NCBI GenBank assembly: GCA_963575745.1
Contig: CAUYUJ010015726.1
Coordinates: 591,542-655,541, forward strand
Source: Prorocentrum cordatum
Taxonomy: Eukaryota > Sar > Dinophyceae > Prorocentrales > Prorocentraceae
Reading direction: 5' to 3'
DNA length: 64,000 bases
In this document: piece by piece, positions 352 through 18,171 of the stretch
Layout of the letters: every line of letters begins with the position of its first letter
Numbering within the stretch: position 1 is the stretch's first letter
Notes under the pieces: generated by a model
The model's input: the letters and a program-made list of their open reading frames with translations, nothing else
What the model was told of the DNA's origin: nothing
Database searches by the model: none
Position numbers and translations under genes: made by a program

Positions 352-637
352 AGTCGAAAACAAGCTGGTAAGCTTAGGTATACAGTCCGCCTTAGGCGCT
401 TCCATATCCCAGGCTTAGGCTCATAGCGCATGAGCAAGAGAGCGAGACGAAGCATGGGATCTGGAGTAAAGAGTAAGATGGGCATCGCCAATGGAAAGGA
501 TGTTTTCCGATCTCAGATGCAAGTAGTGCGCCTCGGTGAGGCGCAGTCACATATTAGGCCGGGCCCGGCTTGAGCCAGGCACGGCAGCGGTACATGCTCG
601 ATTTATACCTCGCCTTTAACCTTCTCCGTTTAAAGTC
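352..637 (-). repeat. 3' LTR (downstream in the element's sense)
   Basis: This is the second LTR copy, and the sequence outside it diverges at once on both sides. It contains a perfect 7-bp stem with a GGT loop at about 527-543 (GCGCCTC-GGT-GAGGCGC). The same stem in the other LTR has one mismatch. The first Gag ATG of the other LTR is changed here (ATT for ATG), but the next in-frame ATG is kept. Confidence 0.93.
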
Positions 638-738: not shown

Positions 739-2445
739 CTACCGGCGAGTTTCCTCGCTGCTAAAGCGCACCTGCCCGCGGGTTTCCCCGCTGGCTCGGG
801 AGGCAGGGCCGTCCTGAGACGACCTGGCCGCCCTATACGGCGTATGTTTCTTCAGCTCGTGCTTGAAGGATTGCTGGCCGGCCATTACTTGTAGGAGCAA
901 CGCGCGGTCAATGCTACCTTTGGTATGACCATCGGCAGTCATATCCCGCGTGTCACACCATTGGACGCTTTCCACGATTCCACGTTCCATCATCTGGCGA
1001 ATCCAGCTGATGTGCCCAAGCAGAGTACACTCTGTGGGCTTCTTCAGATCCTTGCTAGACAAAGATTTGAAGACAGACTCGGCATCAATAGTCAGAGTGA
1101 CTTTGATACATAGACCACCCATTTCCAATATGTTCTTCAACTGTGTGGGGGTCAATGGTCCCGAGTGTAGCTCGTGGAGCGTTACAATGGTCGGGTAGCA
1201 GTCTTCCAAGTTGTGGGCTGCTGCCAGTGTTTCCGCAGAGTAGCTCGAACGCACCTGCAGTCGATGAGACTTGCAGTATGCGTCCACCAGGTGCACGACG
1301 GGTTTCCCCGCTTGCGTGTGGCCACGCCTCAGCAGGTTAGCCCCGCGGATACCATAGCCTTTGACTTCGTCGTCTTCATCTCCGTTGAGACGACGATAGC
1401 CAGAATCGCTATGCAGGTCGACTTCTCCTGTTGGAGTCATAGCATGATACACGATCTTCTTCGGACCTGCCTGCAATTTTCTGGTAACCGCGTTTAGTCG
1501 TCGTACCTGGATGTTTGTCGGTTCTTGGATACGTTGTAGTGAGACAACATAGACCATTAGCCATACCTGCGTGATCAACGCATAGGCTAGAGCGCCACGA
1601 AGACTGACGAACATATCAGAAATTGTCTTCGTCGCCTTGCTTTCAGGATCAGCTCCTGTGAGTTCTGGATGTGTGATAGGACGAAGCTGTTTGATGTATT
1701 CGTCCTGGTCGAGAGTGACGCTCCCATCATCGGTCTTGTTGTACCGGACAGCACAGTTCGTGTATGTGTGCTTGTTCAGTTTGCACTTCCCAAACGTATC
1801 TTCAACACACTTGACATACTTGTCGATAGCCTCTTCCTTCCCAGTCATATTGATGTCATCAACGTGCTTGGCTGTCAAGAGGTTTGGGCTCATCTCGAAT
1901 TCTTCGTCGTATGAAGTAGGCTGTAGCCCAAAGCTCCTAGTGATGGACCTGAGCTTCAGCGAGAATGCCCTGGGAGCATCCTTCGTGCCTGTCCCCGGTT
2001 TCAGACACCGGAGACAATGCTTTGATTCGTCATATGACTCAAAGCCTGGCAGTGTGCGAAGGACAGCTGCAGATCCAGGTGGTAGTGTGAAACACACCAC
2101 ACGTTCTTTCTCGCCCGTTGCCGCGGCGAGCTCGCCATAGGTCAGTCCCTTCAAGAAAGCCATGTTGATGTCCAGGGAAGCGATGATCCAAGCTTTGTTG
2201 CATGCAGCAGAACTTGCGAGCAGTCTCTGGCTTGACCTCCTTGCCGTGCCAGAGAAGGTTTCGACGTCAAAGGCTTCGAGGTCCATGAAGCCACGGAGTA
2301 CCAAGCGTAACCGGATCGTCCTTTCCATTTCGCCCTTTTCGTTCTTGACAAACTTCCATTTGTATACGTAGCGTGACGTCATGATGTTAGACGCCTTGCT
2401 TAAGTCAGTCATCTGGAAGCATTTGTTGTCAAGCCAAGTCTTCAT
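739..2445 (-). CDS. pol: Copia reverse transcriptase and RNase H (568 aa)
   Basis: This copies the element RNA into DNA and degrades the RNA strand. The RVT_2-type polymerase has YVYKWKFVKN, LVLRGF, ASLDINMAFLKG (catalytic D92) and AKHVDDINMTG (HVDD at 194-197, for the usual YVDD). RNase H follows: LHSDSGY, SYSAETLAAAHN, TIDAESVFKSL and CDTRDMTADGHTKG. The ORF starts exactly at the overlapping stop of the integrase ORF. The C-terminus after about residue 520 runs into three hairpin repeats (778, 745, 726) and is probably not part of the enzyme. The H for Y in the catalytic motif is unusual, but both aspartates remain. Confidence 0.9.
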   Translation of the reverse strand: MKTWLDNKCFQMTDLSKASNIMTSRYVYKWKFVKNEKGEMERTIRLRLVLRGFMDLEAFDVETFSGTARRSSQRLLASSAACNKAWIIASLDINMAFLKGLTYGELAAATGEKERVVCFTLPPGSAAVLRTLPGFESYDESKHCLRCLKPGTGTKDAPRAFSLKLRSITRSFGLQPTSYDEEFEMSPNLLTAKHVDDINMTGKEEAIDKYVKCVEDTFGKCKLNKHTYTNCAVRYNKTDDGSVTLDQDEYIKQLRPITHPELTGADPESKATKTISDMFVSLRGALAYALITQVWLMVYVVSLQRIQEPTNIQVRRLNAVTRKLQAGPKKIVYHAMTPTGEVDLHSDSGYRRLNGDEDDEVKGYGIRGANLLRRGHTQAGKPVVHLVDAYCKSHRLQVRSSYSAETLAAAHNLEDCYPTIVTLHELHSGPLTPTQLKNILEMGGLCIKVTLTIDAESVFKSLSSKDLKKPTECTLLGHISWIRQMMERGIVESVQWCDTRDMTADGHTKGSIDRALLLQVMAGQQSFKHELKKHTPYRAARSSQDGPASRASGETRGQVRFSSEETRR

Positions 2446-5400
2446 TCTGTGTAGAGGGCTTTGGAAACTTTGACCGGATTTGCTTGGATGTCGGCCTTCG
2501 TGAGTAGATCGTCTTCCTTGACGACCACGGCACGTTTGGAGGCAGCGCTAACGTATACTCGCATAGTTGTGACGCTGCTGTCATCCAACAGTCGGTGTTG
2601 CTGCTCGGACAGGACGACTTTGGACATGTCTGCAGTGAAGCAGAGCTCGATATACTTCCCGTGCTCATCGGAGTCCAGATCATATTTGCTATCCGGTTCC
2701 GTGGAGCATAAAGGAACGTAGTAAGAAGTGTCCATGTCGTATCCTGGCGGGTGACCCCGCTCCGGCAAGTGGCCTTGCACATCTTCACAGGTCGTAGAGA
2801 CTAACACACACTGTGTGTCTGTCATGTATGTAGGAACTGTATGCATGACTTCCTCTGTGTCAGCTTCAAGGAGTGTTCTGTCATCCATCAGTTCAGCATA
2901 CCACGACTTCAAGACAAAAGCATCCAGATCCTCTTCTGTCTCCTCTATGATGGTCGGGAGCCGACCATCGTTGTCCGTAGGAGGCTCCTCAGGAGCAGCT
3001 GCTGGAGGTGATTCGCTTGGTGGTGGACCATCAGCGAGTTCCTCAAACTTAGTGAGGTCTTGGTCAAACCCAGCAGACGGCTTCCTGGATTTAAGACACT
3101 GGATGATGCGTGAGTGTGTGGATCCTGTGATGTCATAGATGTTCAAGGCAGTGCCATCAGCTTCATAGTAATGAAACCCAGGGGTCACATCGTTATCATA
3201 GTGCACTAGTGTACAGCTGTCTGCATAGGGTGCGGCAGGCAGCTTCGTCAGGCTCTTGGCGAGTCGTACAGCAACAACGTTTTCAATACGAAAGTAGTTG
3301 CGTATGAGGTACTGAAGAGCCAAGTGCACCTTAGGCGAAAGTCGGCTCGCAGCAGTCATCTGCAGCCGACCCTGTTTCGCTGGTAGATATCCGAAAGTCA
3401 TGGCGGGTTTCCCCGCTGGCAGACCGGCAATAAAGGCCAATACTGTCCGAAGGGCCGTATTGTCCGATCCTATCTCGCGGACCATAAGTGCTTCGATGTA
3501 CAGTGTGTGTCGTGTGTCAGGATACTGTACTCGCACTTCGCGATTGCCGACCTTCACGATGACCTGGCCTCGGTCAGGTTCGTTGCGGATGACCGGGTAT
3601 GGACCACTCCATCCACCCCAGTCGTCTTTCGTGGTGGTCGGACGGTGATAGTCCACGAGATCTCCTTCTTTATAGTGAAATTCACCCGTAGCAGTAGTCT
3701 TTGTACGGAGAGCCCTGTTCGTCTTGGCAACCGCAGTGGCCTGCGTGATTGCCTCCAGACTAACCCTCCTGATTGTTTCCTCCCTTGAGTGATCTGATGA
3801 TTCAGTGGGCTGATCATGATCCAAGACAGGGAAATCAGGAAGCATAGCTGGCTGTCTACCATACAGCGCATTGTACGGAGACACTTCATTGTAGAAGGTA
3901 AATGCGTTGCTGGCAAACAAGGCTTCATGTAAGAGACGAGTGAAATTGAGAGGGATATTTAATCTATTCAATTCTTCTCCCATCACGTGTAAGAGGTGTC
4001 GCAGGATGCCGTTCCTAGCTTCGATAGTTGTAGCGTGTTGGCCACGCGCTCGAATACGAAGCTCTGTTCCCTTAGCCTTAAGGATGGCCTTTGCTGTATC
4101 ATTATTCAGTGCTCCTTCCCCATCGGAGTATAGAATTTTAGCAGGGCCATGCTGCATCCAAGTCGTATGATAGGCATCGAGAACAGTATGCATAGCTTTA
4201 TCAGGAATCTCTGTGCCAGCTGCCCAGCGAATACAACGGTCGATGATGTGAAAAACAATATGTTCCTGTTTATAAAAGAAGAGATCACATTCGACTTCTT
4301 CGTTGAAACGTCCTGGCAGTGACACGGAAGGCATCACCGTGTTGCCTGGTTTATCCCAGGCTCGACATTCTCTACACGAGTCACAAATGCCTTTGATCAG
4401 ACTCAAACGGGTTTCACCCAGACCAACCTTGGTTAGAATCATCCGCATTTTTGGCTCCTTGGCATGAAACCATCTCAGGTGGAGTTTGCGGAGTTCTCGC
4501 TGCACTACAGCTGGGTCGAAGCTGCGCAGGTTTTGGAGGCTGAGCTGAACGTCGAAGCGAGTCCAATCAGGGAGCCTTGGCCTTGGCCGTGGCTCTGCTT
4601 GAGGCTGCGGCGGTGGTGGAGGATCTCCTCCCTCCATGCGTCCGCGCCTTGCTGCAACTTGTGGCAGTCTACGGTGATCGTCAGAGCTGCCAGCGCCACT
4701 GTTGCCACCATTAGCCCCGTCGGCTCTGGTGATGTCATGGCTGCTGGCGCCTGCGGTTGGATCGCCCTCACCAGGCCGTGGCGGCCTAGGCGCACGTATG
4801 CGCGCTCTCGCGGCCGGCGCCGCTTTTGCGGCTGGCGCCGCTTCTGCGGCTGGAGCCGCTTCCGCGGCTGGCGCCGCAGGAGCGGCTTGTCCCGCCGGGC
4901 GCGGCTGGCCAAAGTTATCTGGCAGCTTCCATTTTTCGGCGAATCTGCATTGGCCAGATATCTTGGTGTGGTGAGGATTGCTCTTCTGATATTCCTTCTT
5001 ACAGCTTGGACAGTCCCAGTAATACGGTTCAACATCATACCACCGACACATCTTCGGATCCCTACTGTGCTTTGGTGATTGCTTGTAGTTGTTGTCCACA
5101 CAGCCAGGGCACCCAAGACCGCCAGGTGGTGGTCGACAGATTTCTCCGTTTGGGTGTCTCCGGATTGTTGGGTCGTCCAAGTCGTAGCCAGCACTGTTTG
5201 TTACGAACGCATAGCTGCGTTCACGATTCGCGAATGGATCGCGACCGTAAGCAAACAGGTCTTTGGCGATTTGCACCGCATCAACGATCAGTGACTGCAT
5301 TCTGTAGGTATACTGTGCCGCCCTTGCTAGCTCTTTGTTACAAGCATTGGCGTGCACATGATTTCCTGGACAACGCTTGCCTTTGAAAGGTGCCAACAAC

Positions 5401-7136
5401 TCTTCTTTATTTGCCATTATCTGTGTTGGCTTGCGGATGTATTGTCCAAATGAATCTTTGAGACCAGTCGTGCACTGATCAATGATCGTTTGGCAAGTGA
5501 CCTTGCGTTGTGCCAGTTCCTTCCATGGCTGGATCTCATCCACCCACGTGCCCATTGGTTGTTCCCTGAGAAAGAAACGTCTTAGGTCGTCTTGTAATAG
5601 AGCAACTGTTCCACAGAACGTGATGTGAGGCAGGTCCTCTTTGTGGTGTTTAAGCCACGTATCATGATTGACCTGTGCGTTGAAGTAAGAAGGGAGTCCA
5701 GTAGTTCTGCAACTTGGCTGCAGAATCGTGATCTTGACAAAGCAAGTCTTGAGGTAGTGGAGGACTGCTCTTTGTACTTCCGAGTTTCCAAGGTCAACCA
5801 TAGATATCTTGTCAAGGTTCCCGCCTGACGAGAGTCCCCTCTTGAAGGCTAATATGGATATACCACCCTTGCCCCCACATAATTCAAGCATGTCCACTTG
5901 ATTGTTTCTGCCGTAGCATAATGACTGGACTATCGAGAAGACATCAGCATGTGAGTCAGCGGGTTGCCCCGCCGGTAACATCATGAAGATGTCCTCTGAT
6001 TCGCTGTCCGAGTCCGAGTCGTCAAGAGGAACGTCGTTGAAATATGTGGAGCAGTCAAGCCCTTTGAGGTCCTCTCCACAGTCGTCGTTACCGTCTTCCA
6101 CTTTCTTCGGGACTTTCTTCGGTTTGATGCCGGCTTCTTTGTCAGCTTTCTGCTTTTCTTTCTGTTTTATCCTGGCATCAGTGGGCAACGCAGTTTCCGC
6201 GGAGAGATCCGCTGCGGAGGAATCCGCTGTAAAATCAGGAAATGGCGGAATTTCAGGAAGGTTGTTGGTGGGTCGCGTTTGGCAACGCTCAATCGAAGGG
6301 GGAGGAGATCGATCGTCATCGACGATCGTCACACGCTTTGGGCGTGGCCTTCGCGACTCACCATTGCCATGAAGAACTGGAGCCGGAGGCTCCCAGTATA
6401 GCCGAGTACTGATGTTTGTAACCCCATCAGGTAATGGAGCTACATAATTGTACCCAGTTGGCTGATCCTGGATTCTGATATCTTGAACGATCTTGTTCGT
6501 GTCCAGGTCGGTCGTGACTCTACGAACCACATGGTCCCATTGAGGGCCCTTTTGTGGACATTGAACGTAGTGTCTGACCTTTTTGTCAACGCGTGTACAC
6601 ACACTGAGGTGTACCGCACTCCGCTCATTCCTGATCATGTTGGCTTTATCGAGTTGATCAAGGAAGCGTGCAATAATAATAGCCAAAGTTTTATACCGAA
6701 ACTCGGCACGTTGCTGATCTTGGCCATACCAATCCAAATCATGCTCCCTGTGTGATCCACAAGTACATTTCCATAAGTTTATCGGTATATGAGGACAAGA
6801 TGTAGCAACTTGTATATAAGAACCACTGGGATGTTTACTGGATCGGTCAAACTTAATACCGAAATGACAGAGTCTGATTCGTATAACGCTTAGCTTCAAA
6901 TCTTCGATAACATCTTTGATCGGACCCTGTTTCCAGAAATACCCGGGTGGCCCCAGGATAACTATCTGCATTCTCAGAGCACGCGCTTTGATCAGGAGAT
7001 TTTGTATACGTTGATAATGTGGTCCCGCCCTCTTTCCTGGTGTACGCACGTACCAATCAGAGGGTGTGGCCACCCACAACATATTGTAGTCTCCTGCCAA
7101 CAAATTTCCCAAATACTGTGTTCCAGTTGAAGTCAT
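2442..7136 (-). CDS. pol: Methyltransferase-like domain plus integrase (1564 aa)
   Basis: The open frame continues upstream of the Met at 7136 to about 7250 (PREKYHSKC...). Residues about 1-150 form a conserved-looking unit with CHFGIK and C-x-C...H. Residues about 410-630 resemble a cytosine-C5-methyltransferase core: MLELCGGKGG (motif I-like, E418), QPSCRTTG (at the PC motif, C476) and REQPMGTW (ENV-like). Then comes an A/P/E-rich repeat stretch. Integrase follows: an HHCC zinc-binding part (HLRWFH, CDSCREC), a core with D951, D1005 and E1039 (33 residues between the last two) and a C-terminal GDLVDY...WSGPYPV module. Integrase inserts the cDNA into the genome. The frame ends in ATGA at 2445-2442, overlapping the first Met of the RT ORF. 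A single missing base best explains the break, because the residues join naturally. Confidence 0.85.
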   Translation of the reverse strand: MTSTGTQYLGNLLAGDYNMLWVATPSDWYVRTPGKRAGPHYQRIQNLLIKARALRMQIVILGPPGYFWKQGPIKDVIEDLKLSVIRIRLCHFGIKFDRSSKHPSGSYIQVATSCPHIPINLWKCTCGSHREHDLDWYGQDQQRAEFRYKTLAIIIARFLDQLDKANMIRNERSAVHLSVCTRVDKKVRHYVQCPQKGPQWDHVVRRVTTDLDTNKIVQDIRIQDQPTGYNYVAPLPDGVTNISTRLYWEPPAPVLHGNGESRRPRPKRVTIVDDDRSPPPSIERCQTRPTNNLPEIPPFPDFTADSSAADLSAETALPTDARIKQKEKQKADKEAGIKPKKVPKKVEDGNDDCGEDLKGLDCSTYFNDVPLDDSDSDSESEDIFMMLPAGQPADSHADVFSIVQSLCYGRNNQVDMLELCGGKGGISILAFKRGLSSGGNLDKISMVDLGNSEVQRAVLHYLKTCFVKITILQPSCRTTGLPSYFNAQVNHDTWLKHHKEDLPHITFCGTVALLQDDLRRFFLREQPMGTWVDEIQPWKELAQRKVTCQTIIDQCTTGLKDSFGQYIRKPTQIMANKEELLAPFKGKRCPGNHVHANACNKELARAAQYTYRMQSLIVDAVQIAKDLFAYGRDPFANRERSYAFVTNSAGYDLDDPTIRRHPNGEICRPPPGGLGCPGCVDNNYKQSPKHSRDPKMCRWYDVEPYYWDCPSCKKEYQKSNPHHTKISGQCRFAEKWKLPDNFGQPRPAGQAAPAAPAAEAAPAAEAAPAAKAAPAARARIRAPRPPRPGEGDPTAGASSHDITRADGANGGNSGAGSSDDHRRLPQVAARRGRMEGGDPPPPPQPQAEPRPRPRLPDWTRFDVQLSLQNLRSFDPAVVQRELRKLHLRWFHAKEPKMRMILTKVGLGETRLSLIKGICDSCRECRAWDKPGNTVMPSVSLPGRFNEEVECDLFFYKQEHIVFHIIDRCIRWAAGTEIPDKAMHTVLDAYHTTWMQHGPAKILYSDGEGALNNDTAKAILKAKGTELRIRARGQHATTIEARNGILRHLLHVMGEELNRLNIPLNFTRLLHEALFASNAFTFYNEVSPYNALYGRQPAMLPDFPVLDHDQPTESSDHSREETIRRVSLEAITQATAVAKTNRALRTKTTATGEFHYKEGDLVDYHRPTTTKDDWGGWSGPYPVIRNEPDRGQVIVKVGNREVRVQYPDTRHTLYIEALMVREIGSDNTALRTVLAFIAGLPAGKPAMTFGYLPAKQGRLQMTAASRLSPKVHLALQYLIRNYFRIENVVAVRLAKSLTKLPAAPYADSCTLVHYDNDVTPGFHYYEADGTALNIYDITGSTHSRIIQCLKSRKPSAGFDQDLTKFEELADGPPPSESPPAAAPEEPPTDNDGRLPTIIEETEEDLDAFVLKSWYAELMDDRTLLEADTEEVMHTVPTYMTDTQCVLVSTTCEDVQGHLPERGHPPGYDMDTSYYVPLCSTEPDSKYDLDSDEHGKYIELCFTADMSKVVLSEQQHRLLDDSSVTTMRVYVSAASKRAVVVKEDDLLTKADIQANPVKVSKALYTE

Positions 7137-7336
7137 TACCTCATTATGGGTAATCCGGTCGCATATATAACCACGGGTTCGGAGTTCAGCGCAAGCTGTG
7201 CGAATATCTTCGATGACGAGGCATTTTGAATGATATTTTTCTCTCGGGCCTCAGCGCGGCCAACGTATGTCGCGAGGAGGCCGGTATTCGGCTTCTCTTC
7301 GCAAGCGAGCGCCGCCGGCGCGCCCGCCTGCCCCCG

Positions 7337-7876
7337 TCAGAGGGGCATGCTGTTAGCGGATGACTCCGCAGGTGTCACTGGTGCGGCTGCGCTCACGATC
7401 TCCACGCGGGTTGGCCCCGCAAGGTCCGTCGAACCTCCGCCCGTGCAGCTTGGTGGTGGTGGCGGTGTCGCGGGTGGCCCCGCTTGGTTCTCAGGCGACC
7501 AATTATTCACCGCCTCCTGGACTGCCCAGAAAATCTTAGACTTCAGGGCATCCTTCATGTGTGGCCAGGTCCCTTCAGGACACTGTTGGCCTTTCCACCA
7601 GCTGTCGAGCGTCCTGTCTACGATCGCACGGGTCGTGTCCTTCAGGAGCTGCTTGTCGAGATACGGCTCGACAATGAACGTATCAGTCGTAACGGTCATA
7701 GACTGTCCCATCGCGGGTTGCCCCGCTGTTACCCCAGCGGGTGACCCCGCACCTACACCGGCGGGTGGCCCCGCATTGACGGAGTCCTCGTCGTTCTCCG
7801 TCTCGGTGTAGCCATCACGACTACTGCGGATTGTGAAGGTGTTGGTGACCGTCTGGCTTTTAGCCCCGTCATACAA
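7337..7876 (-). CDS. Protease-integrase linker segment (179 aa)
   Basis: The segment opens just after the protease remnant; the codons upstream of its first Met (about 7920-7876, sense VLRAKKTPSGHLAIPCGLYDG) are also open and look coding. It contains hairpin-encoded peptides in tandem (AGPPAG, AGSPAG, AGQPA) and then WSPENQAGPPA and a proline run. It stops at 7337. From there to about 7250 the frame changes again before the next ORF. No enzyme domain is recognised. It is probably spacer within the Pol polyprotein. Confidence 0.5.
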   Translation of the reverse strand: MYDGAKSQTVTNTFTIRSSRDGYTETENDEDSVNAGPPAGVGAGSPAGVTAGQPAMGQSMTVTTDTFIVEPYLDKQLLKDTTRAIVDRTLDSWWKGQQCPEGTWPHMKDALKSKIFWAVQEAVNNWSPENQAGPPATPPPPPSCTGGGSTDLAGPTRVEIVSAAAPVTPAESSANSMPL

Positions 7877-7920
7877 CCCGCAGGGAATGGCTAGGTGTCC
7901 TGAGGGGGTCTTCTTCGCCC

Positions 7921-8390
7921 TCAGGACCTTGGCGCCCTTCCCCAGCTTAAGAGTATATCTCCGCTGGGGAAGATAACCTTCTGGAAGCCTGGCTTTAGCA
8001 CGATAATTGTGTCACGTGCTTCCATGGCACTCAGGCCCCAGATGGCTGGGAGGTTTGCACCTGAGCCCTCTGCGATGTTGGAAGCATACTCCTCGATGCG
8101 GGGGCTTGCCTCATTGGCGTATTGCACCCCGATCTTGAAGTTGCCCATTTTCCGACAGATCGCAGCACCCTCACCGACACCGTTGATGTAGAGGGTTTTG
8201 CTCAGTGTGCATATGGCCGGTCTGTGATTGTACCTGCCATAACCTCCTGGAAGGTTCGTGCTGTATTAGCTCCGATGATGTTCACGTTGGAGCCAATGTC
8301 TAGCATGAACGATATGCAGGGCATTCCGTCTTCGTCGGGGAAGAATGAATGTTCCTGTCCGCGCCGCCAGAGCCATCGTACCATGGTCAT
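7921..8390 (-). pseudogene. pro: Aspartic protease split by frame changes
   Basis: The part at 8202-8390 has FMLDIGSNVNIIG, which fits the retroelement protease active site (hydrophobic-D-x-G-S/A followed by N). The part at 7921-8148, in another frame, has LPAIWGLSAMEARDTII, the usual second conserved region near the protease C-terminus. The end of the large ORF overlaps the first part in a third frame, so at least two frame changes separate intact-looking pieces. Protease would normally cut the polyprotein; in this copy it could be made only with frameshifting or after correction of the sequence. Confidence 0.7.
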
Positions 8391-11300
8391 CAGTATGGTA
8401 CGTAATCTGTGAACCGAGCGTGCCTTTCAGTAGGCGTTGTTCCAGCACCCACTGGCTCATTGTTAGCTCGGTGCACCATATTTGCTCATATTGGCGGCGC
8501 TCCTCCACGGCAATTGGTTCCTGTTCAAGAACCCAATAATTCGCAGAGAGTGTGGAGGTCCACTCACCTCCTGGCGGAAGCGTATCCGTGACGTCACGTG
8601 TGTAGGTCAGCCCTTCCGTGTTGATCATGAAGGTATTGTGGAATTGGGCTGCCTCCGCGCTTTCAGCACTGGCCCGGATTCTAGCGCTTACCGGGCTCTC
8701 TACACGTGAGGTTCTGGATCCGCCTCCGCTCCTGCCACTCCGCCTAATATTGGCCTCCATTGCCCTCAGAAATCCCGGATTCGGAGGTCCATTTGCGGGT
8801 GACCCCGCTTTGGCGGCAGGAGTCGCTTCGGCGGGTGGCCCCGCTGCTGGGGGCCCCTGTGCTCGAAGCGTAGACAGGATCGGCATCTGGATGCCTTGCT
8901 CTGGCGCTGCGGCTCGAGCCTCTAGCGCCTCCACTGCTTCCCGCAGCCGACGCAGTTCCCGAGCATCCACCACGTATCTTTCCTGCTGGCGCGCCTGTTC
9001 CGACTCAGCGTCGCGCTGTCCAGCATGCGGAAAATGCGCTGTGATTATGCCCGGCCCACGACATACAGCGCAGGGTGCCTCGTTTGGCGCACCTGGCCGC
9101 TGATTGCTGACGTGCTGCTGTGCAACACGATCCCAGCATATATCGTGGAAGAAGTGCCCGCACGCCAGTCTCCACACCGTGGTGCCCATCTCGTAGGGGT
9201 CCATACAGATTGGGCACTGTGTGAAATTGTAGTCTGAAATGACTGGAGTAGGCACGTCGGGGCGAGTCCGAGCCTGACGCTCGAAGGTCGTTTCGCCCTC
9301 CCGATATGGCGTCGGTGGTGGCGGTCTATCTGTCTGTTCAGCGGGTGGCCCCGCGCCTGCGGGTGTCCCCGCTTGGTTGTCACGCTCGATCCTTCTCTGG
9401 ATCGCGCGCTGTTGGCGCAGCCTAGCGTTGTCCCGAGCCTGCTGCCTAGATGCCAGTATCGCTTGCTGCGTGTTGTGCACGTCGCGAATATAGTCTGGCA
9501 TACTGCCCAGAGCGGCTGGCACCGCGAGACCAGCTGGCTGAACTACGGTCTCGGGGTCCGTCGGCGTGGGCATATAGGCGTAGTGCGGCAAAGACTGCGC
9601 ATCGACTGCTCGTGTAAACTGCAAACGATACATCTCATTGGCCAGATTTCGAGTGTATTCGTTCGCAGGTGGCCCCGCAATCATAGGAGTGTTATTTACT
9701 TGCGCGTAGTACTCCGGGTACATCGGCGCATCCATGGCCGGTGCCTCTGCTGGTCCATGATTGTCCCATCCATATATTGGGTGTGATGCTATTCCTGGAA
9801 TAAACACCTGCCGATATGGATTCGTGGGATCAGCATTCGGAGCATCATCAGAAGTCCAGCTCCACAGAGGCCGAAAGTCGCCATGATTCGTAACATCTAT
9901 GTTGCGGTTCCGCAACAGGCTGGGCACTCTATCAGCTTGTTGATGTAAAAAGGTAGCTTGTGCCCTCAAAGTGGCCGCCCTCCGTTCATAGTCTGCGCCC
10001 TGCTGACTGTCAGCGGGTGGCCCCGCGTGTGCGGATGACTCCGCAGGCGTTCGCTCGGCGGGTGACCCCGCAGCCACTCCTCCTTCACTACCCCTCGGAG
10101 TGCCGAAGGGAGTGGTCGCCCGGAGTGCCGCTGCGAGCGTCGGATTCCCGCGAATCGCCTGGAGTCGTTGCCACAAACTGTTTTCGCTCGTTTCGGGCGG
10201 CGGAGTCCGATACGGCGAGCCACCATCTGATCCGCTCATGGGGACAAACCTCGCGCCTCCAGCTTGCTGCGGAGGGCGTTGTGGTTGTGTCCCTAGGATG
10301 CCGGGTGGCCCCGCAGGAGGGCGCAGGTTCCTCTGCTGTGCATCTTGGATACCTGCGTGAACCGCCCACGGGTCAGCTCTATATAGCTGATCAGTCAGCC
10401 CAGAGACGTCAGCTGATGTCAAATGGCTGTTGAGAGCGTGGACCCAAGACTGCTGGTCCTGCCGCCACGGGGATGCTACCGTCGCCACCGGTGTGACTAC
10501 TTGTTGCCACGACCCGTCCGAGGTGTCTACTGCGGGTGTCCCCGCACCTGCGGGTGGCCCCGCACCTGCGGGTGGCCCCGCTTCAGGCATGGCCTCGTCC
10601 TCCTGGGCATTCATCATGAGGACTGTCTGTGTCTCAAACGGTCGTGGAGCAATATCTTGCTCGGTCATGACCAAGTTGAATGGACGACCGTCCGTCTTAG
10701 TCCAGCCCTTGAGGTACATAGCATGATCTTCCATTACACCTACAGTTTTATCACACATTTTGAGTGGCAGGTAGTCATCAGTGCGAATCCTGTCCGCGGG
10801 TTGGCCCCGCTTCCGCGTCTTGTCATAGAACAGCGGATTGCTCCAGGCTTCGCCGACCCGATACTTCGCAATGCTCACGATCTGCATGATGTGATCGGGC
10901 GGTATACGTCCGTCGTGGCCCCTTGTCATGACTATGTCATTTGCTGATCTCCATAGAGAGAAGCCACTGGACAGCATCTTGTTGATGCTGCAGAATATGA
11001 GCACCTCCGAGTCAGGACGGATGCCCGATTGTATCCTCGGGTCGCCCGGGAGGTAGGGGCAGCCATGCACAAATTGGCGCCCCCCCTTCCTCTTCGGGTT
11101 GTCCTGTGCGAGGCATGACAGGCCATTAGCAAGAATGTCCTTGACATACTCCCACTGCATACCGTGGATGAAATATACTGGGTCGTCTGGTTCTTTCATC
11201 CATGTTGTGATCGGCTTGTACAGCGACTCGGGACAGTGGATGCCTGGACTGCTGTGGCCGTTCGTGGCTCTGATGAAGTACTGTGGCCTGCGTGCCGTTG

Positions 11301-14300
11301 GTCGAAACCTGGGAGACAGCAGCATACTGTCATCAACGCACTTCATCTGGAGCCTGCCCTTCTGCATGCCGTGATGGTCAACCATCTCACAGCAGTTTAG
11401 CAGCACCCAATACACGAATGACGTGTGTGGCCTGCCTTTGATCAGCACCTCGTGCATTTCACGATAGTGCTTATACTGATCATTTTCAGTCCAGTTTGTC
11501 AGCAGATCATCAACGACAACCCAGCCGTCGTTTGGATCAAAAGTGCTGACCTTTTCGAAGTATCGATTATGTTTGTCCTTGTAATATGGACTGTGGCGTA
11601 GAGCCGTTGAAAACCACATCGACACCTTGGTCATCTGCTCGTTACTCGGCAAGGTTGGATCCATGCCGTTCTGTGTCATGACCTTCAGGAGTGCTTCTTT
11701 ATGCTGCGCAGCGCGTAGTGGCGGCCTGTCTCGCAGCATGTTTCCCACTTTCTGCTGTTCGCGCTCCCAGTCGTTGTGGCACTTGAAATTACGACGAACC
11801 GGACAATTAATGACTTCATATCGGTCCGTGTCGTCTGGAGTGACTCGTGGGTTGATGGGCTGCCTCGGGCCTTTGTCTACAATGCCTTGCCAAAACAACT
11901 TGCATTCCAAAGGAATGACCCTCAGAACAGACATTATTGGCTGCCCGCTTGCGGGTGACCCCGCTAGTGCAGCCGGCGGCGCTTTGGCGGGTGACCCCGC
12001 TAATGCAGCTGGCGCCGCTTTAACGGGTGGCCCTGCAGAACCTGCGGCTGACGGGGCAGCTCCTGCAGATGACTCCGCGCCAGGGTTCTGGCGACCTTTG
12101 TCAGCAGCTGCATCATCAGTCAGTTTCTGTTGGTCGCCAAACTCTTTGAGGACTCTGAAGCGTTCTACTCTGGAGAGAGTGCCTTCTGCGGGTGTCCCCG
12201 CTGTTACGGCTGGCGCCGCTTTAGCGGGTGGCCCCGCAGAGCCCTTGTCCTCCTTAGCCTTGGCGGCTGCTTCTGCCCGCACCGACCTCATCCCAGCTTC
12301 GGGCTTCGGCTGTGCTGTCATTCGTGCCGAACCTGGTCGTGGTGCAAGGCGCGGCTGATGCAGAGTTGGAGTCCAGTCACCTCGGAAAGCTGCCTTAGGC
12401 TTGTCGCGAGCTTCGTCCTTGACATCGCCTTGGGTCGCCGGCGGCATCGGGGTCGATGGTCCAGCAAAAGCCTTCTTCCTCTCTGTCACGGACGGACCGG
12501 GAGGAGCTGCCGGCTTAGGATCGTCCGTCTTGGCAGTCCCTCTGGCCTTCGCCCGCTCACGGGTGCCTTCGGGGCTCTTGGACGGTTGCCTTTTCGCAGG
12601 AGTCGGTGAGGACGAGGAGTCGGCTTTAGGTCTCGGCGGTGGTCTGCTGCTCTTGCCTGGTCGTGGACCAGGAGGGTCTCTAGGAGGGCCTTCTGGCTGG
12701 CCATGATCATGGATGACCTGCCTCATCTGGTCGATGTCGGCAGTACCCTTTATGGCCAGCTTGTACTTGCCATTCTCGTGGCGGTAGAGTACCCTCGAGC
12801 AGAACCACTTCTGCGCCGAAGAACTGTAGTACCAGCAGGCGCTTCCGTCAGGGAATGGATTCTCTGAGCCGTCTTCCGCCGCCCACTCTTCATGTAGCTC
12901 GGTGCGGTCAGTGCCGGCGGCGGACCCGGCAGCAGAGACAACGTCTATCCACTCGTCCGCAGATCCAGCGGCTGGTGCTGCTTCTGCGGGTGACCCCGCT
13001 TCCTTGCTGGATTCTGCAGGTGACACCGCTTCCTTACTGGATTCTGCGGGTGACCCCGCTTCCTTATGGAATCGGCGGTTCCATTCCTTGAGGCGGTGGT
13101 CATTGGGAAGCTTTGCCCAATTTTCCTTGACGGTGTTGGCCACCTCTTCGGTCATAGGGACGCGATCGGCCTCTGTGATACGCTTTCCTCCTCCAGGAAC
13201 CTCTTTGTTCGGATCATGGACGTTGCCCGCGTCGTCTCCATGAGACCAATTCCACGGGGTCTCTCCATGGTGAGGGCTCCTGGAGGGGCGGTCCATCGGA
13301 CACCTGCGCATGTGGCCTTTAAAGGGATCACACTGACATACTTGCTTTCTGTACGTTTTGCGGTCAGTGATGATCTCCTGCTTCTTCGCCCTTTTGTCCC
13401 AGGCCTCTGGCGTCTTGGTCTTGCCGCCCTTGGTACGGATTATCGCGCCAGTCTCGTCCCTTTTGGTACAGTATTCCTTAGAATACCAGTGCCGAAGAGT
13501 ATCCATAGAGTAGCCGGGGTACCATCTGATGTACCAATCCGGCACCTGCTGAGCAGATACTCCTACGGAGTGCTCAGTGCTGTATGGATAGCCCGATTCA
13601 TCATGCGTAGGGCGTCTAGGAGCTGAGCGGCTCCTTCCGCGGGCTGGCCCCGCTGACGCACTACCACGTGTCACTGGCCTTTGATCGTCATGCTCTGAGT
13701 CTCGGGGAGGCGACGGTCGCCTGTCCCTCTTGGCGTACCGCATGTCCACCGAGTCCTCTGAGCTGTCCTGGACCATGAACACGTTTTGATACGGGCTTCT
13801 GAAGTATCCGATGTCATTTAACTGCTCCATCGAGAGGTCGTTAATGTTCATTTGATCGCAACCTTGCATGAATACATCCATATACCAAGCGGGTGGCCCC
13901 GCTGTTGTGTCTAGCATCTCTTCGGCGGGTGACCCCGCTAGAGCTTGGAGTGCTGTAAGCATCTGAGATGCTGACATGTTCGAATCCAAGTATGGACGTA
14001 GACGGGCAACTCCTGGGTGCGACAGCAGTTCGATCATCGTCATCTGCTGCTGTGCTGGCGCACTCAAGAGTCGGATTGCTTCTGAAACCTGCTCCTGGAG
14101 CATGTCGTTATAATCTTCTTCGGATTCTTCGGAGTCGGAATCCGCGGGATGGCCCCGCATTTCGTCATCGGCGTCTCCCATCTCCGAGCCAGCCCACGAC
14201 GGATTTGGCAGCAACGACATGCCAATCACTTGTGGGGCCAGCGCGGCGGTGAGTTCTTCCTCTGTTGCCGGGACAGTCTCGGCTTCGGAGACCTCGTCAC

Positions 14301-14610
14301 CGGCGGGTGGCCCCGCTGGAAGACCGAACCAAGCATTGTACGCAATCTCATCGACCTCGTCCCAGCCGTGGAACTCGTCGAAGAGGGTCACTGCGTAGTC
14401 TTCCAGGGCTACGGTCACTTCAGCGTAGCGGGCCATCACGTAGTACGTGGAGGAGCCCGCGGCGGGAGCCGCTTCTGGATTGACGTAAAACTCGTAGTCA
14501 ATGTAGTCTATGTCATCCATAAAGAATTTTGAGCCAAATGTACGGATCCCTTTCCTTTCCCTTTCGGGCATTGATCGCGCAAGTGCTCTGTGCTGCCGCA
14601 TGTATGACAC
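8266..14610 (-). CDS. Large accessory ORF with Tpt1/KptA and RING-H2 domains (2114 aa)
   Basis: This is a polyprotein segment between Gag and protease. Residues about 995-1250 match the Tpt1/KptA RNA 2'-phosphotransferase fold in order: ALRHSP, DGWVVVDDLL, IRATNGHS, IHGMQWEYVKDILANGL, QFVHG, SGIRPDSEVLIF, LWRSANDIVMT and GRIPPDHI. The four residues used by Tpt1 enzymes are present (R1005, H1006, R1114, R1221 by my count). Known Tpt1 removes an internal RNA 2'-phosphate with NAD+; some members ADP-ribosylate nucleic-acid ends. Residues 1799-1850 form a RING-H2 finger (CPIC, CGHFFHDIC, CAVC) typical of ubiquitin ligases. The rest is low complexity, rich in P, A, G, S and charged residues, with many A-G-x-P-A peptides encoded by hairpin repeats. 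The Met at 14610 lies in the zinc-knuckle region in another frame; the real join is probably near 14545. Confidence 0.85.
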   Translation of the reverse strand: MSYMRQHRALARSMPERERKGIRTFGSKFFMDDIDYIDYEFYVNPEAAPAAGSSTYYVMARYAEVTVALEDYAVTLFDEFHGWDEVDEIAYNAWFGLPAGPPAGDEVSEAETVPATEEELTAALAPQVIGMSLLPNPSWAGSEMGDADDEMRGHPADSDSEESEEDYNDMLQEQVSEAIRLLSAPAQQQMTMIELLSHPGVARLRPYLDSNMSASQMLTALQALAGSPAEEMLDTTAGPPAWYMDVFMQGCDQMNINDLSMEQLNDIGYFRSPYQNVFMVQDSSEDSVDMRYAKRDRRPSPPRDSEHDDQRPVTRGSASAGPARGRSRSAPRRPTHDESGYPYSTEHSVGVSAQQVPDWYIRWYPGYSMDTLRHWYSKEYCTKRDETGAIIRTKGGKTKTPEAWDKRAKKQEIITDRKTYRKQVCQCDPFKGHMRRCPMDRPSRSPHHGETPWNWSHGDDAGNVHDPNKEVPGGGKRITEADRVPMTEEVANTVKENWAKLPNDHRLKEWNRRFHKEAGSPAESSKEAVSPAESSKEAGSPAEAAPAAGSADEWIDVVSAAGSAAGTDRTELHEEWAAEDGSENPFPDGSACWYYSSSAQKWFCSRVLYRHENGKYKLAIKGTADIDQMRQVIHDHGQPEGPPRDPPGPRPGKSSRPPPRPKADSSSSPTPAKRQPSKSPEGTRERAKARGTAKTDDPKPAAPPGPSVTERKKAFAGPSTPMPPATQGDVKDEARDKPKAAFRGDWTPTLHQPRLAPRPGSARMTAQPKPEAGMRSVRAEAAAKAKEDKGSAGPPAKAAPAVTAGTPAEGTLSRVERFRVLKEFGDQQKLTDDAAADKGRQNPGAESSAGAAPSAAGSAGPPVKAAPAALAGSPAKAPPAALAGSPASGQPIMSVLRVIPLECKLFWQGIVDKGPRQPINPRVTPDDTDRYEVINCPVRRNFKCHNDWEREQQKVGNMLRDRPPLRAAQHKEALLKVMTQNGMDPTLPSNEQMTKVSMWFSTALRHSPYYKDKHNRYFEKVSTFDPNDGWVVVDDLLTNWTENDQYKHYREMHEVLIKGRPHTSFVYWVLLNCCEMVDHHGMQKGRLQMKCVDDSMLLSPRFRPTARRPQYFIRATNGHSSPGIHCPESLYKPITTWMKEPDDPVYFIHGMQWEYVKDILANGLSCLAQDNPKRKGGRQFVHGCPYLPGDPRIQSGIRPDSEVLIFCSINKMLSSGFSLWRSANDIVMTRGHDGRIPPDHIMQIVSIAKYRVGEAWSNPLFYDKTRKRGQPADRIRTDDYLPLKMCDKTVGVMEDHAMYLKGWTKTDGRPFNLVMTEQDIAPRPFETQTVLMMNAQEDEAMPEAGPPAGAGPPAGAGTPAVDTSDGSWQQVVTPVATVASPWRQDQQSWVHALNSHLTSADVSGLTDQLYRADPWAVHAGIQDAQQRNLRPPAGPPGILGTQPQRPPQQAGGARFVPMSGSDGGSPYRTPPPETSENSLWQRLQAIRGNPTLAAALRATTPFGTPRGSEGGVAAGSPAERTPAESSAHAGPPADSQQGADYERRAATLRAQATFLHQQADRVPSLLRNRNIDVTNHGDFRPLWSWTSDDAPNADPTNPYRQVFIPGIASHPIYGWDNHGPAEAPAMDAPMYPEYYAQVNNTPMIAGPPANEYTRNLANEMYRLQFTRAVDAQSLPHYAYMPTPTDPETVVQPAGLAVPAALGSMPDYIRDVHNTQQAILASRQQARDNARLRQQRAIQRRIERDNQAGTPAGAGPPAEQTDRPPPPTPYREGETTFERQARTRPDVPTPVISDYNFTQCPICMDPYEMGTTVWRLACGHFFHDICWDRVAQQHVSNQRPGAPNEAPCAVCRGPGIITAHFPHAGQRDAESEQARQQERYVVDARELRRLREAVEALEARAAAPEQGIQMPILSTLRAQGPPAAGPPAEATPAAKAGSPANGPPNPGFLRAMEANIRRSGRSGGGSRTSRVESPVSARIRASAESAEAAQFHNTFMINTEGLTYTRDVTDTLPPGGEWTSTLSANYWVLEQEPIAVEERRQYEQIWCTELTMSQWVLEQRLLKGTLGSQITYHTDDHGTMALAARTGTFILPRRRRNALHIVHARHWLQREHHRS

Positions 14611-15206
14611 TTCATAGTATTGCCAGAAGCGTCCCTAGGGTTGCCCCTCCGCCCTTTTCCCTTACCGGAGGTCCGCCTGTGACCCCGACCTTTGCCTCCG
14701 ATAAGAACTTCCTCAAAGACTATATCAGTTAAGGACGTGAGGAAAGCAGTAATACCCCTACCATGCATACGGCGTCTGCGACCCCCTTTACCACGACCCT
14801 TTCCAAATTGTTTGAAATGTCGGCGTACTGCACGTCTCACCTTTCTGACTGGTTTCTTCATAAAGCGCCTCCAACGGCGTTTTGATTTGCGATAAGCCAT
14901 AAAGGCGGCTTCCGCCCTTTGCTGTTCAGAAAGGTGAGTGTCATCCGCTGGATAGTCATTACCAGCAGAGACTATTCCATTGTGCTCATCGTCAGATGAA
15001 GTATCTGTGTCAGTGCCAGATTCAAACGGTGAGGGTGGCTGAGACCATTGAGCGGATGACTCCGCTTGGCCCCAGAGGGTTGTGCCCGAGGGCGGGCTTG
15101 CAGTGTAGGCGGCGCCTGGCGAGTAGTTCGACCAGGCGTTTGCCTCAGCTGCCTCTGCCGATACCTGGCCGGTCTGCCCTAGAAGGGCAGTGGCCTCGCT
15201 GGGCAT
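14508..15206 (-). CDS. gag: Gag C-terminal part with CCHC zinc knuckle (232 aa)
   Basis: This is the nucleocapsid-like end of Gag. It has a long basic run of K, R and G (about residues 110-190), then CHTCGSTEHLRDQC, a perfect C-x2-C-x4-H-x4-C nucleic-acid-binding knuckle. It lies in the -1 frame relative to the upstream Gag ORF. The open frame extends upstream of the Met at 15206 to about 15260, where it picks up the recurring A-G-S-P-A peptide, so the frame change probably falls near 15260-15280. The shared stretch with the upstream ORF suggests one interrupted gene, not two genes. Confidence 0.75.
   Translation of the reverse strand: MPSEATALLGQTGQVSAEAAEANAWSNYSPGAAYTASPPSGTTLWGQAESSAQWSQPPSPFESGTDTDTSSDDEHNGIVSAGNDYPADDTHLSEQQRAEAAFMAYRKSKRRWRRFMKKPVRKVRRAVRRHFKQFGKGRGKGGRRRRMHGRGITAFLTSLTDIVFEEVLIGGKGRGHRRTSGKGKGRRGNPRDASGNTMKCHTCGSTEHLRDQCPKGKGKGSVHLAQNSLWMT
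14527..14545 (-). other. Degenerate spliced leader before the large ORF
   Basis: The sense strand reads CCGTACATTTGGCTCAAAA. It matches the dinoflagellate spliced leader over 17 bases if two gaps are allowed (loss of GC after CCGTA and of one T); the final G of the leader is A here. It is followed by about 8 bases and then ATG GAT GAC, a Met codon in the large ORF. That spacing is what the 5' end of a trans-spliced mRNA would look like. Confidence 0.5.
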
Positions 15207-16492
15207 ATCGGCTGGGTCAGCCCAGGGATTTGGCTCGCCAGGACCAGCGGGTGACCCCGCAGTCGTGGCGTAACACCTGCATGTGAGTGGTGCCCTGTGA
15301 AGATACCCGCTATGTTGCCAGGAGAGCGCTCGGCAACATGTCCGTAGTTCCTCATCCTGGTCAGCAGCCTGTCATAGTCTGCTTGTGTTCGGGGCATCTG
15401 ATGATTGAAGGGCTCAAGCAGGTGTTGGGCTCGTGACGCGCCAACGCCTAACGCTCTGAAGAGAATCAGCGTTAGGATCTGAAAGTTGGGGATGACAAAG
15501 CCAACAGAGTTAGCCTCGTCACGGGCCATCTCGAATCGAGCTAATACTGAGTCGATTCGCTCGCCCCTTTCGACGCGGAAGTCGATAAGGGCCGTGCCAG
15601 AGTTGAGCTGGCGCTCATCTTCCAGATTTTCAAATTTGGTGCTCAGTAAGTACAGTATGTAGGTTACTGCATCCGTTGGCTGTCCATTGACAGTTGCACC
15701 ATAATTGATGATCTGGGAGGGGGCCTGCATGGCGATACGACGAGCTAGACCTTGAAGGCCTCGTTGTAGTGCTGCAGCTTGTTGTGGCGGTGTCATATTG
15801 CCGCTCGTTACGTTTAACCATGCATGTACTTCGCGAACGTATTCGCGGAAAGGCGTAGTACCGGCAGGGTCCCATGAAGGGCCAGTAGTACGCGTGTCGT
15901 CCATCCCCTGCCGCATGTATCCCACAGCACATCCCATTATCACCCATAGAATGCCGAAGATAGTTATCTTGATCCAATGCATATGCATTTCGGCTTCGGT
16001 GATTGGTTTAGGCTGTGGTTTGTCAGGCTCTGGCGTGGTAGCCGTGAGGCGCCTGACCGGCACGGGATGCAGGTGGCCCCGCTGCGGGTAGCCCCGCAGG
16101 GTGACCACGTTCTCGATCGAGTTGCCGATTGGCATCTGGTGGAAGTCGGGAGTGAAGTAGCGCAGTGAAGTAGGAGAAAGCGTCTCGAGTTCGCGGGTTG
16201 CCCCGCTAGCTCGATCGCGGACTGGCTCCGCTCCTCGCAGAGCCGGCGCAACATGGTATTCCACCGTGGTAGTAGTCCACCAAGTTGTGCCGTGGATTAC
16301 TGGAATCAGAGCGAGAGCCAGCCACACGAGCGTGTAGCCAGCTCCGCTACCAAGTCGAAAACAAGCTGGTAAGCTTAGGTATGTGTTACGCCTTAGGCGT
16401 TGCCATATCCCAGGCTTTGGCTCATATCGCATGAGCAAGAGAGCGAGACGAAGCATGGGATCTGGAGTATAGAGTAAGATGGGCATCGTCAA
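15179..16492 (-). CDS. gag: Gag N-terminal and capsid-like part (437 aa)
   Basis: This ORF would form the structural protein of the retrotransposon particle. It opens at an ATG inside the LTR (16492) and reads through the primer site. Residues about 53-70 (LVWLALALIPV) and about 175-193 (TIFGILWVIMGCAVGY) are strongly hydrophobic and could span a membrane, which is unusual for Copia Gag. From about residue 210 the sequence looks like a retrotransposon capsid: a helical region with YILYLLSTKFENL, then DFRVERGERIDSVLARFEMARDE, then a leucine-rich stretch and MPRTQADYDRLL. The frame ends about 27 codons past the point where the next frame takes over. Hairpin repeats at 16193, 16084, 16069 and 15247 lie in it. 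A start at a later Met is possible. Confidence 0.75.
   Translation of the reverse strand: MTMPILLYTPDPMLRLALLLMRYEPKPGIWQRLRRNTYLSLPACFRLGSGAGYTLVWLALALIPVIHGTTWWTTTTVEYHVAPALRGAEPVRDRASGATRELETLSPTSLRYFTPDFHQMPIGNSIENVVTLRGYPQRGHLHPVPVRRLTATTPEPDKPQPKPITEAEMHMHWIKITIFGILWVIMGCAVGYMRQGMDDTRTTGPSWDPAGTTPFREYVREVHAWLNVTSGNMTPPQQAAALQRGLQGLARRIAMQAPSQIINYGATVNGQPTDAVTYILYLLSTKFENLEDERQLNSGTALIDFRVERGERIDSVLARFEMARDEANSVGFVIPNFQILTLILFRALGVGASRAQHLLEPFNHQMPRTQADYDRLLTRMRNYGHVAERSPGNIAGIFTGHHSHAGVTPRLRGHPLVLASQIPGLTQPICPARPLPF
16341..16352 (-). other. Primer binding site, tRNA-iMet-like
   Basis: The sense strand reads TGGTAGCGGAGC immediately after the LTR end. It is complementary to a tRNA 3' end ...GCTCCGCTACCA and resembles the initiator-Met primer sites (TGGTATCAGAGC type) common in Copia elements. 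It also lies inside the open Gag frame, where it encodes L-G-S-G-A. The exact tRNA is inferred, not checked. Confidence 0.75.
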
Positions 16493-16569
16493 TGGAAAGG
16501 ATGTTTTCCGATCTCAAATGCAAGTAGTGCGCCTCGGTGAGGCACAGTCACATATCAGGCCGGGCCCGG

Positions 16570-16586
16570 CTTGAGCCAGGCACGGC
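16570..16586 (-). other. Spliced-leader-like segment in the 5' LTR
   Basis: The sense strand reads GCCGTGCCTGGCTCAAG. This equals the dinoflagellate spliced leader with one A and one ATTT removed. The same segment is at 569-585 in the other LTR. It lies 78 bases before the first Gag ATG. The exact 9-mer TGGCTCAAG alone is not significant in 64 kb; the case rests on the flanking CCGT and GCC. Confidence 0.4.
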
Positions 16587-16601
16587 AGCGGTACATGCTC
16601 G

Positions 16602-16608
16602 ATTTATA
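16602..16608 (-). promoter_or_regulatory. TATA-like box in the LTR
   Basis: The sense strand has GGTATAAATCG, and the equivalent site in the other LTR is 601-607. It lies about 20-30 bases upstream of the spliced-leader-like segment. Dinoflagellate promoters are usually described as TATA-poor, so the role is only inferred. Confidence 0.35.
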
Positions 16609-16638
16609 CCTCGCCTTTAACCTTCTCCGTTTAAAGTC

Positions 16639-17390: not shown

Positions 17391-17394
17391 TGCG

Positions 17395-17670
17395 CCTCCC
17401 CACGGGGCCTGCGTGCACCACAGCAGCCTGCGTGCATCACAACGCCTGTGTACGCCACAGCGCCTGCGTGCACCGCAACAGACGCGTACAACACAGCGCC
17501 GGTTGCCTGTGCACACCACAGCGCCTGCGTGCACCACAGCGCCTGGGTACACCACGGTGCCTTTGTACACCACAGCAGCCGTGTGCATCACAGCCGAGGT
17601 GTGCACCACAATGCCTGCGTGCACCACAACGCCTGCGGACACTTCGGCGCCAGTGCACAAGCAGCCATAG
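17395..17670 (+). repeat. GCCTGCGTGCACCACAGC minisatellite, left arm
   Basis: Imperfect 18- and 24-base units of GCCTGCGTGCACCACAGC type give a Thr/Ala/Pro/Cys peptide if translated. The same repeat appears inverted at 20451-20556, so the two arms flank the 159-bp array. Confidence 0.75.
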
Positions 17671-18165: not shown

Positions 18166-18171
18166 CGCGCA

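Follow-up and report, generated by a model that had tools for sequence, protein, structure and literature searches.

Cellular Tpt1/KptA/TRPT1 enzymes act in two steps: ADP-ribose is first joined to the 2'-phosphate of an RNA, and RNA with a 2'-OH is then released (PMC6333775). The essential residues of the enzyme CthTpt1 are R18, H19, R68 and R121 (PMC6333775), and the tetrad of human TRPT1 is R40, H41, R86 and R150 (PMC6582358); here and below, statements given with a PMC number refer to the available excerpts of those articles. We analyzed a 64,000-nucleotide stretch of DNA from the dinoflagellate Prorocentrum cordatum (contig CAUYUJ010015726.1, positions 591,542 to 655,541 of the forward strand), hereafter called the window. 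A damaged long terminal repeat (LTR) retrotransposon of the Ty1/Copia type, 16.3 kb in length, lies on its minus strand at positions 352-16637 and carries a Tpt1/KptA domain. The domain shares with the cellular enzymes the Pfam profile, an alignment over both lobes, the Arg-His-Arg-Arg (RHRR) tetrad and, in most rows, the HGT motif. However, it is embedded in the Gag-side polyprotein of the element and has extra residues between the two lobes.

Like other Ty1/Copia LTR retrotransposons, the element has an RVT_2 reverse transcriptase (RT), LTRs, a probable CCHC zinc knuckle, a tRNA-Met primer site and 5-bp target-site duplications. Unlike them, it is 16 kb long, and Tpt1 and RING domains are inserted between the knuckle and a protease-like stretch. 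It also differs in that no polypurine tract was seen by eye before the 3' LTR of the damaged window copy, the one inspected, where the sense strand is pyrimidine-rich. Dinoflagellate retroelements with a captured nucleic-acid-modifying enzyme that retains its key residues have been described as SymbioLINE and SymbioDIRS, but these are LINE and DIRS elements and their enzyme is a DNA methyltransferase (DNMT) (PMC5890265). The Copia elements of Symbiodinium are without a DNMT domain according to the excerpt of the same article (PMC5890265). An LTR retrotransposon with an RNA-modifying enzyme is found in orchids, where a Ty3/Gypsy element carries an AlkB m6A demethylase that is active in vitro; in contrast to the present case, the enzyme is encoded in an additional open reading frame (ORF), the element is of the Gypsy type and the chemistry is another one (PMC9289625). 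In that study, LTR retrotransposons are considered to fix extra domains only rarely, and the 15 unusual domains that passed its filter in 121 angiosperm genomes were in Gypsy and not in Copia elements (PMC9289625). Extra enzymes, common to retroelements, also occur in the LTR elements of bdelloid rotifers, although these are a DEDDy exonuclease or a GDSL esterase in a separate ORF3 (PMC5408684). The initial annotation of the window knew of no LTR retrotransposon with Tpt1. In line with this, no description of a Tpt1-carrying retroelement was found among the top-ranked papers of the literature searched, which covers few subscription papers and preprints; in the excerpt of PMC4053983, Tpt1 and retroelement terms co-occur for unrelated reasons.

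Identity and active site of the Tpt1 domain

A Tpt1/KptA domain had been proposed in the large ORF of the window from the letters alone, and the profile search bore this out. Residues 995-1231 of the 2114-aa ORF matched Pfam PTS_2-RNA (PF01885) with 55.7 bits (E 8.1e-15), compared to a curated cut-off of 26. A phmmer search with window positions 10860-11670 retrieved the tRNA 2'-phosphotransferase structures 7yw3 (E 1.8e-12) and 7yw2 (E 2.1e-11). A 9-row profile that included cellular rows matched 13 distinct PDB sequences, all of them named RNA or tRNA 2'-phosphotransferase, with both lobes aligned. A profile of 14 element-type rows matched 6 PDB sequences, and the N-lobe was weak. From these matches the domain in the window ORF is judged to be a genuine Tpt1 domain, far beyond chance. 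Chance or artefact as its source was also considered and was ruled out by the profile scores, the many copies and the target-site duplications described below.

The tetrad of the window copy was assigned by alignment to CthTpt1 and human TRPT1 and is intact; no loss of the R-H-R-R residues was seen after alignment. Two of the four catalytic residues named in the initial annotation, R1005 and H1006, stood. The other two, R1114 (IRATNGHS) and R1221 (WRSAND), occupy positions that are largely conserved but lie outside the tetrad, and have to be replaced by R1086 and R1178. The arginine that cages the NAD phosphate (R139 in CthTpt1) corresponds to R1198 in the window.

Association of the domain with the element

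Genome-wide searches covered the P. cordatum assembly (4.13 Gb), and the candidate numbers given for them are not copy numbers. With the window domain as the query, the best 142 of 4567 first-look candidates were scored, the window included; the rows other than the window were 91-98% identical to it, and a stop was present in 3 of the 142 listed rows. With the RT as the query, the best 146 of 10046 candidates were scored, and all 146 showed 100% protein identity, also to the damaged window copy. An RT row lay downstream on the same strand for 58 of the 142 listed domain rows, and the wrong order was observed for none. The distance from the domain to the RT was 9.19-9.53 kb in 57 of these rows and 6.5 kb in one. 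We then sampled the association from the other end, taking 12 of the 88 RT rows that had no listed partner; the domain was found at the expected place, without a stop, in all 12 of these RT-chosen copies.

An LTR search, in which the best 40 of 1330 candidates were scored, gave 11 pairs of LTRs 15,988-16,133 bp apart among the listed matches, and each of the 11 enclosed a domain row. A domain row was located within 16 kb for 17 of the 18 unpaired LTR rows, and none was found for one on contig C20066; for this comparison, 94 of the 142 domain rows were used, as no LTR contig carried the remaining 48. Exact 5-bp target-site duplications flanked all 10 pairs examined (of the 11), and an extension to 6 bp was seen in none. 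The domain is part of the transposing unit and moves with the element, and the arrangement proposed for the window thus recurs in other copies. The element is very abundant and recently active in P. cordatum.

Divergence among the listed Tpt1 domains reaches 9% although the RT proteins (best 146 of 10046) are identical, and silent divergence (dS) is patchy along ORF1; this suggests either a mosaic history or a burst in the very recent past. An excess of silent divergence specific to Tpt1 was also considered, as six elements gave a dS of 0.197 in Tpt1 and 0.047 in RT; the RT rows had been selected for 100% protein identity, a choice that reduces their dS. It was dropped because dS was patchy across ORF1 in the window copy, L073 and L074.

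Families, age and origin

A genome search with PF01885, in which the best 150 of 2877 candidates were scored, separated two kinds of loci. L001-L006 (135-186 bits, with a stop in L003) and L007 look like cellular-type genes. P. cordatum has several cellular-type Tpt1 loci, and protein P0034 also has a PF15247 domain. The remaining 143 rows scored 71-92 bits, 6 of them with a stop (by eye). The 33 copies examined among these 143 rows (34 rows, since L008 and L018 are one copy) all belonged to one family, B, distinct from the window-type family A. Identity between the two families is about 27% in the domain, 44-54% in Gag, 37% in the protease-like part and 28% in the colinear stretch from Tpt1 to RING. 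The order of knuckle, Tpt1, RING and protease-like stretch is common to both, so that the placement between Gag and protease given in the initial annotation holds, with the protease named as protease-like. Because two such diverged families carry the domain at the same place, it has been retained for a long time. A third, older subfamily was seen with protein P0002: all but one of the best 137 of 4868 candidates were 55-79% identical to P0002, and 45 of the 137 rows were without a stop, as opposed to 92 with one (by eye; this subfamily is known from domain rows alone).

In a 42-row tree, another difference from the cellular enzymes was apparent: the 16 element rows stood apart from the 26 cellular rows, which include P. 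cordatum and Symbiodinium genes (branch support 92/84; 93% of 200 bootstrap trees). The branches were long and the donor of the captured gene was not placed by this tree. It could be argued that one copy acquired a host Tpt1 in a single event and that the domain was simply replicated with it, and the recent burst indicated by the 146 identical RT proteins would fit such an accident. However, two families with about 27% identity carry the domain at the same place, the element domains are separate from the cellular rows in the tree, and the substitution ratios given below are low. An accident of this kind was already disfavoured and is very improbable.

We considered and rejected a horizontal transfer to the green alga Pyramimonas, as the two proteins tested, P0002 (100% over 284 aa) and P0010 (99%), matched P. 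cordatum loci. The Pyramimonas sp. AAC (EukProt) dataset most likely holds P. cordatum sequence, judging from the two proteins tested. P0003 (ENA) contains the same domain type and is probably from another organism, because it showed at most 55% identity to the 150 rows scored in the P. cordatum genome. These protein searches with the element domain covered proteins of 0.55-1.75 times 270 aa, a range that full polyproteins elsewhere would escape. Among viral contigs, 31 pattern matches were obtained and no relative was among them.

Selection on the domain

The catalytic residues were compared across the copies. The RHRR tetrad was present in 21 of 21 family A rows, in 11 of 11 readable RT-chosen copies (the twelfth is clipped at the edge of the stretch) and in 33 of 34 family B rows, that is, 32 of 33 copies, the exception being L059 with W at the last place. 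The NAD-binding HGT motif was found in 19/21 family A, 34/34 family B and 12/12 RT-chosen rows. The caging arginine was conserved in every family A (21/21) and RT-chosen (12/12) row.

The pooled ratio of nonsynonymous to synonymous substitution rates (dN/dS), calculated by NG86, was 0.177 for the family A domain in the 21 domain-chosen rows, a choice by score that favours intact copies. It was 0.264 in the 12 RT-chosen rows plus the window, the highest of the A sets; these rows were chosen independently of the domain but have an intact RT and are hence young. All 33 rows together gave 0.216. Constraint was unevenly distributed in family A: the NAD lobe (residues 1152-1232) gave 0.08-0.10, compared to 0.27-0.44 for residues 1072-1152. 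In family B (8 full ORFs), the ratio was 0.199 for Tpt1, 0.182 for the protease-like part, 0.357 for the C-terminal end and 0.126-0.330 for presumed spacers. Pairs of family B copies gave a ratio of 0.44 at dS below 0.05, going down to 0.09-0.20 at dS above 0.2. The family B domain is constrained, though parts of its surroundings are more so.

These ratios bear on whether the domain could be a passenger, serving Gag structurally or by binding RNA, with catalysis being irrelevant. Its location after the zinc knuckle, the family B ratio that is not below some spacers and the stops in 92 of the 137 rows of the third, old subfamily (by eye) are consistent with such a role. In family A, however, constraint was strongest in the NAD lobe, both families retain the tetrad, and decay is normal for old copies of any element. 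We regard a non-catalytic role as unlikely.

Proposed function

We tentatively favour, at somewhat less than even confidence, the reading that a Ty1/Copia family of P. cordatum took up Tpt1/KptA long ago, that purifying selection has preserved the enzyme in two families or more, and that it clears 2'-phosphates from RNA. In this proposal, the captured gene would have come to lie between the zinc knuckle and the RING domain of the Gag-side polyprotein. A single ORF spans Gag to the protease-like stretch in L010 and L073. Because one ORF of such intact copies encodes Tpt1 together with the Gag and protease-like parts, it would be translated with Gag, and it should therefore be abundant and packaged beside the RNA, the primer tRNA and, later, the cDNA. 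The element protease would release it inside the particle, where it could use NAD+ to transfer ADP-ribose onto RNA phosphates. Most likely, then, to judge from the sequences compared, the domain is an active NAD+-dependent RNA-phosphate enzyme that is made with Gag and packaged. As family A has kept the residues named for both steps, its enzyme would most likely free the packaged RNA or the tRNA primer of 2'-phosphates or comparable RNA lesions and so keep reverse transcription from being blocked. Among the candidate roles, we rank the clearing of 2'-phosphates or RNA lesions first, capping of ends second and counter-defence third.

Several observations weigh against 2'-phosphate clearing. RtcB ligation leaves no 2'-phosphate, and 8 RtcB matches on 5 contigs were found in the host assembly, some of which may be contaminants; fungal-type ligase families gave no host match in a search whose controls were equally silent. 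The window copy itself is damaged and reads HGM at the HGT position, and the frames that hold Gag, the zinc knuckle, Tpt1 and the protease-like stretch are different or broken in it, in contrast to the relative L073. The window copy is probably dead for these two reasons. In family B, Tpt1 has a higher dN/dS than Gag (0.095), RING (0.067) and two of the spacers (0.126 and 0.140). Furthermore, the position of R139 is occupied by D (31 rows) or G (3 rows) in family B, with arginine in 0 of 34 rows, which also sets this family apart from the cellular enzymes. In the Runella enzyme, the corresponding mutation R137A weakened NAD use and allowed an ADP-ribosylated intermediate to accumulate (PMC6333775), and for this reason the family B domain may be doing something else. 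We had also considered that family B lost its fourth catalytic Arg, based on a W at the WRSAN position; this was wrong, as the position lies outside the tetrad and R139 is lost instead.

The loss of R139 is relevant to a second explanation, in which Tpt1 would ADP-ribosylate the 5'-phosphate ends of the element RNA or cDNA as a cap against nucleases or end joining before integration. Human TRPT1 ADP-ribosylates 5'-phosphorylated RNA and DNA, an activity abolished by alanine at any tetrad residue, and S. coelicolor KptA ADP-ribosylates 5'-phosphorylated RNA (PMC6582358). All 34 family B rows are without the caging arginine, as in the Runella mutant that accumulates the ADP-ribosylated RNA intermediate (PMC6333775), and the host RtcB matches leave the occurrence of 2'-phosphates open. 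However, retention of this arginine in all of the domain-chosen and RT-chosen family A rows is as expected of a two-step enzyme. Capping is a possible role, though clearly less probable than 2'-phosphate clearing.

Counter-defence would be a third role, in which Tpt1 removes a phosphate mark placed on RNA by the host or mends RNA cut by a defence nuclease. The DNA methyltransferases carried by dinoflagellate retroelements (PMC5890265) and the m6A demethylase of the orchid Gypsy elements, which its authors tied to host surveillance (PMC9289625), offer parallels. The long retention of the domain would also fit. However, we know of no dinoflagellate defence of that type, no search for defence genes having been made, and we consider this role rather unlikely, if slightly less so than that of a passenger.

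A RING domain was observed 3' of Tpt1 in both families (residues 2304-2358 in L010), and it had the lowest dN/dS of the labelled ORF1 parts in family B. A RING ligase within a retrotransposon polyprotein is noteworthy in its own right. One could imagine a ubiquitin-coupled, NAD+-dependent ADP-ribosylation system inside the particle. Tpt1 would modify phosphate ends or junctions of RNA or cDNA, the adjoining RING ligase would mark the nucleic acid thus modified or its partners, and family B, without the caging arginine, would stop at the ADP-ribosylated product. DELTEX ligases are reported to act on ADP-ribosylated nucleic acids (PMC10810221), and the RING-coupled system would be the retroelement counterpart. 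No Pfam match to the DELTEX C-terminal domain was obtained in the window ORF, L010 or L014. We hold such a coupled system to be improbable, more so than any of the roles above except the accident.

Extra domains that are retained may point at a step that limits the element. The long retention of an RNA-phosphate enzyme by very successful Copia families suggests that, in P. cordatum, phosphates on RNA are damaged or marked in a way that restricts reverse transcription or is turned against mobile elements. The element also provides a natural setting in which to ask about the role of Tpt1 where fungal-type tRNA splicing is absent.

Other features of the element

The positions of the features in the window are given in Table 1. 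The window copy lacks a target-site duplication, its flanks being GGGGG and CCGCC. ARAGORN assigned tRNA-Met (cat) at L071 and L072 and tRNA-Ile at L068. The tRNA pattern used in the search was derived from the primer site itself and is hence not independent of it, with 8 matches compared to 13 for the reversed control. We take the primer tRNA-Met to be of the initiator type. L071 and L072 lie on contig C19152 in a cluster of tRNA genes (Met, Ser, Ala, Thr, Leu).

Table 1. Positions of the LTR element and the Tpt1 active-site residues in the window
Feature	Position	Strand	Remarks
5' LTR	16353..16637	-	285 bp; ends set from 10 further copies and the target-site duplications flanking them
Gag-side ORF	15182..16513	-	444 aa, stop to stop; 54% identity to the corresponding part of family B
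Primer-binding site TGGTAGCGGAGC	16341..16352	-	12 nt complementary to the 3' end and CCA of host tRNA-Met
ORF with CCHC zinc knuckle	14508..15206	-	19.2 bits, slightly below the cut-off of 20.8
ORF with Tpt1 and RING	8266..14610	-	2114 aa
Tpt1/KptA RNA 2'-phosphotransferase domain	10918..11628	-	residues 995-1231; PF01885, 55.7 bits; PDB relatives
Tetrad R1005 and H1006	11593..11598	-	alignment
Tetrad R1086 (K-x-R motif, QKGRLQ)	11353..11355	-	alignment
HGT motif position, HGM in the window copy	11158..11166	-	alignment
Tetrad R1178 (GGRQFVHG)	11077..11079	-	alignment
RING-type zinc finger	9058..9219	-	residues 1798-1851; Pfam zf-RING_2, 30.0 bits, cut-off 27.3
Protease-like region	7948..8448	-	tblastn with the L073 stretch; frame broken in the window copy
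Second ORF	2442..7136	-	1564 aa, upstream of RT; integrase-like by eye
RVT_2 reverse transcriptase (Copia type)	1645..2427	-	PF07727, 45.5 bits, cut-off 31.6
3' LTR	352..636	-	direct repeat of 16353-16637, 95% identity; ends set likewise

The capsid assignment of the Gag-side ORF was made by position and by eye, as family searches gave no match to it, and L010 and L014 contained no Pfam protease or capsid match. From its motif we presume the protease-like region to be the protease. The second ORF is likewise taken to encode the integrase from a motif, and Pfam returned nothing above the cut-off for this ORF, including no integrase match. The same ORF contains MLELCGGKGGISILAF...QPSCRTTG..., which by eye looks like a DNA methylase motif set and had no Pfam match. 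A search of NCBIfam gave a single match of 13.5 bits, compared to a cut-off of 239, and nothing in Rfam reached the gathering score in window positions 1-17500.

In family B, an in-frame TGA ended ORF1 in nearly identical context in all nine copies that reach that place (L009-L012, L014, L016 and L022-L024), and three further stops inspected lie elsewhere. The TGA is followed in most of the nine by AGATGGCAGGGCGACGTCGCCC, which holds a 14-nt palindrome, with slight differences in L014 and L024. In the four copies that show a next ORF (L016, L022, L023 and L024), it continued without a change of frame. Because the TGA is in frame and the next ORF keeps that frame, read-through of the stop is a candidate mechanism that may supply integrase and RT in family B. 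Tpt1 production is independent of such read-through. Adjoining the element, a tandem repeat array with a unit of ~159 bp occupies window positions 18166-20000.

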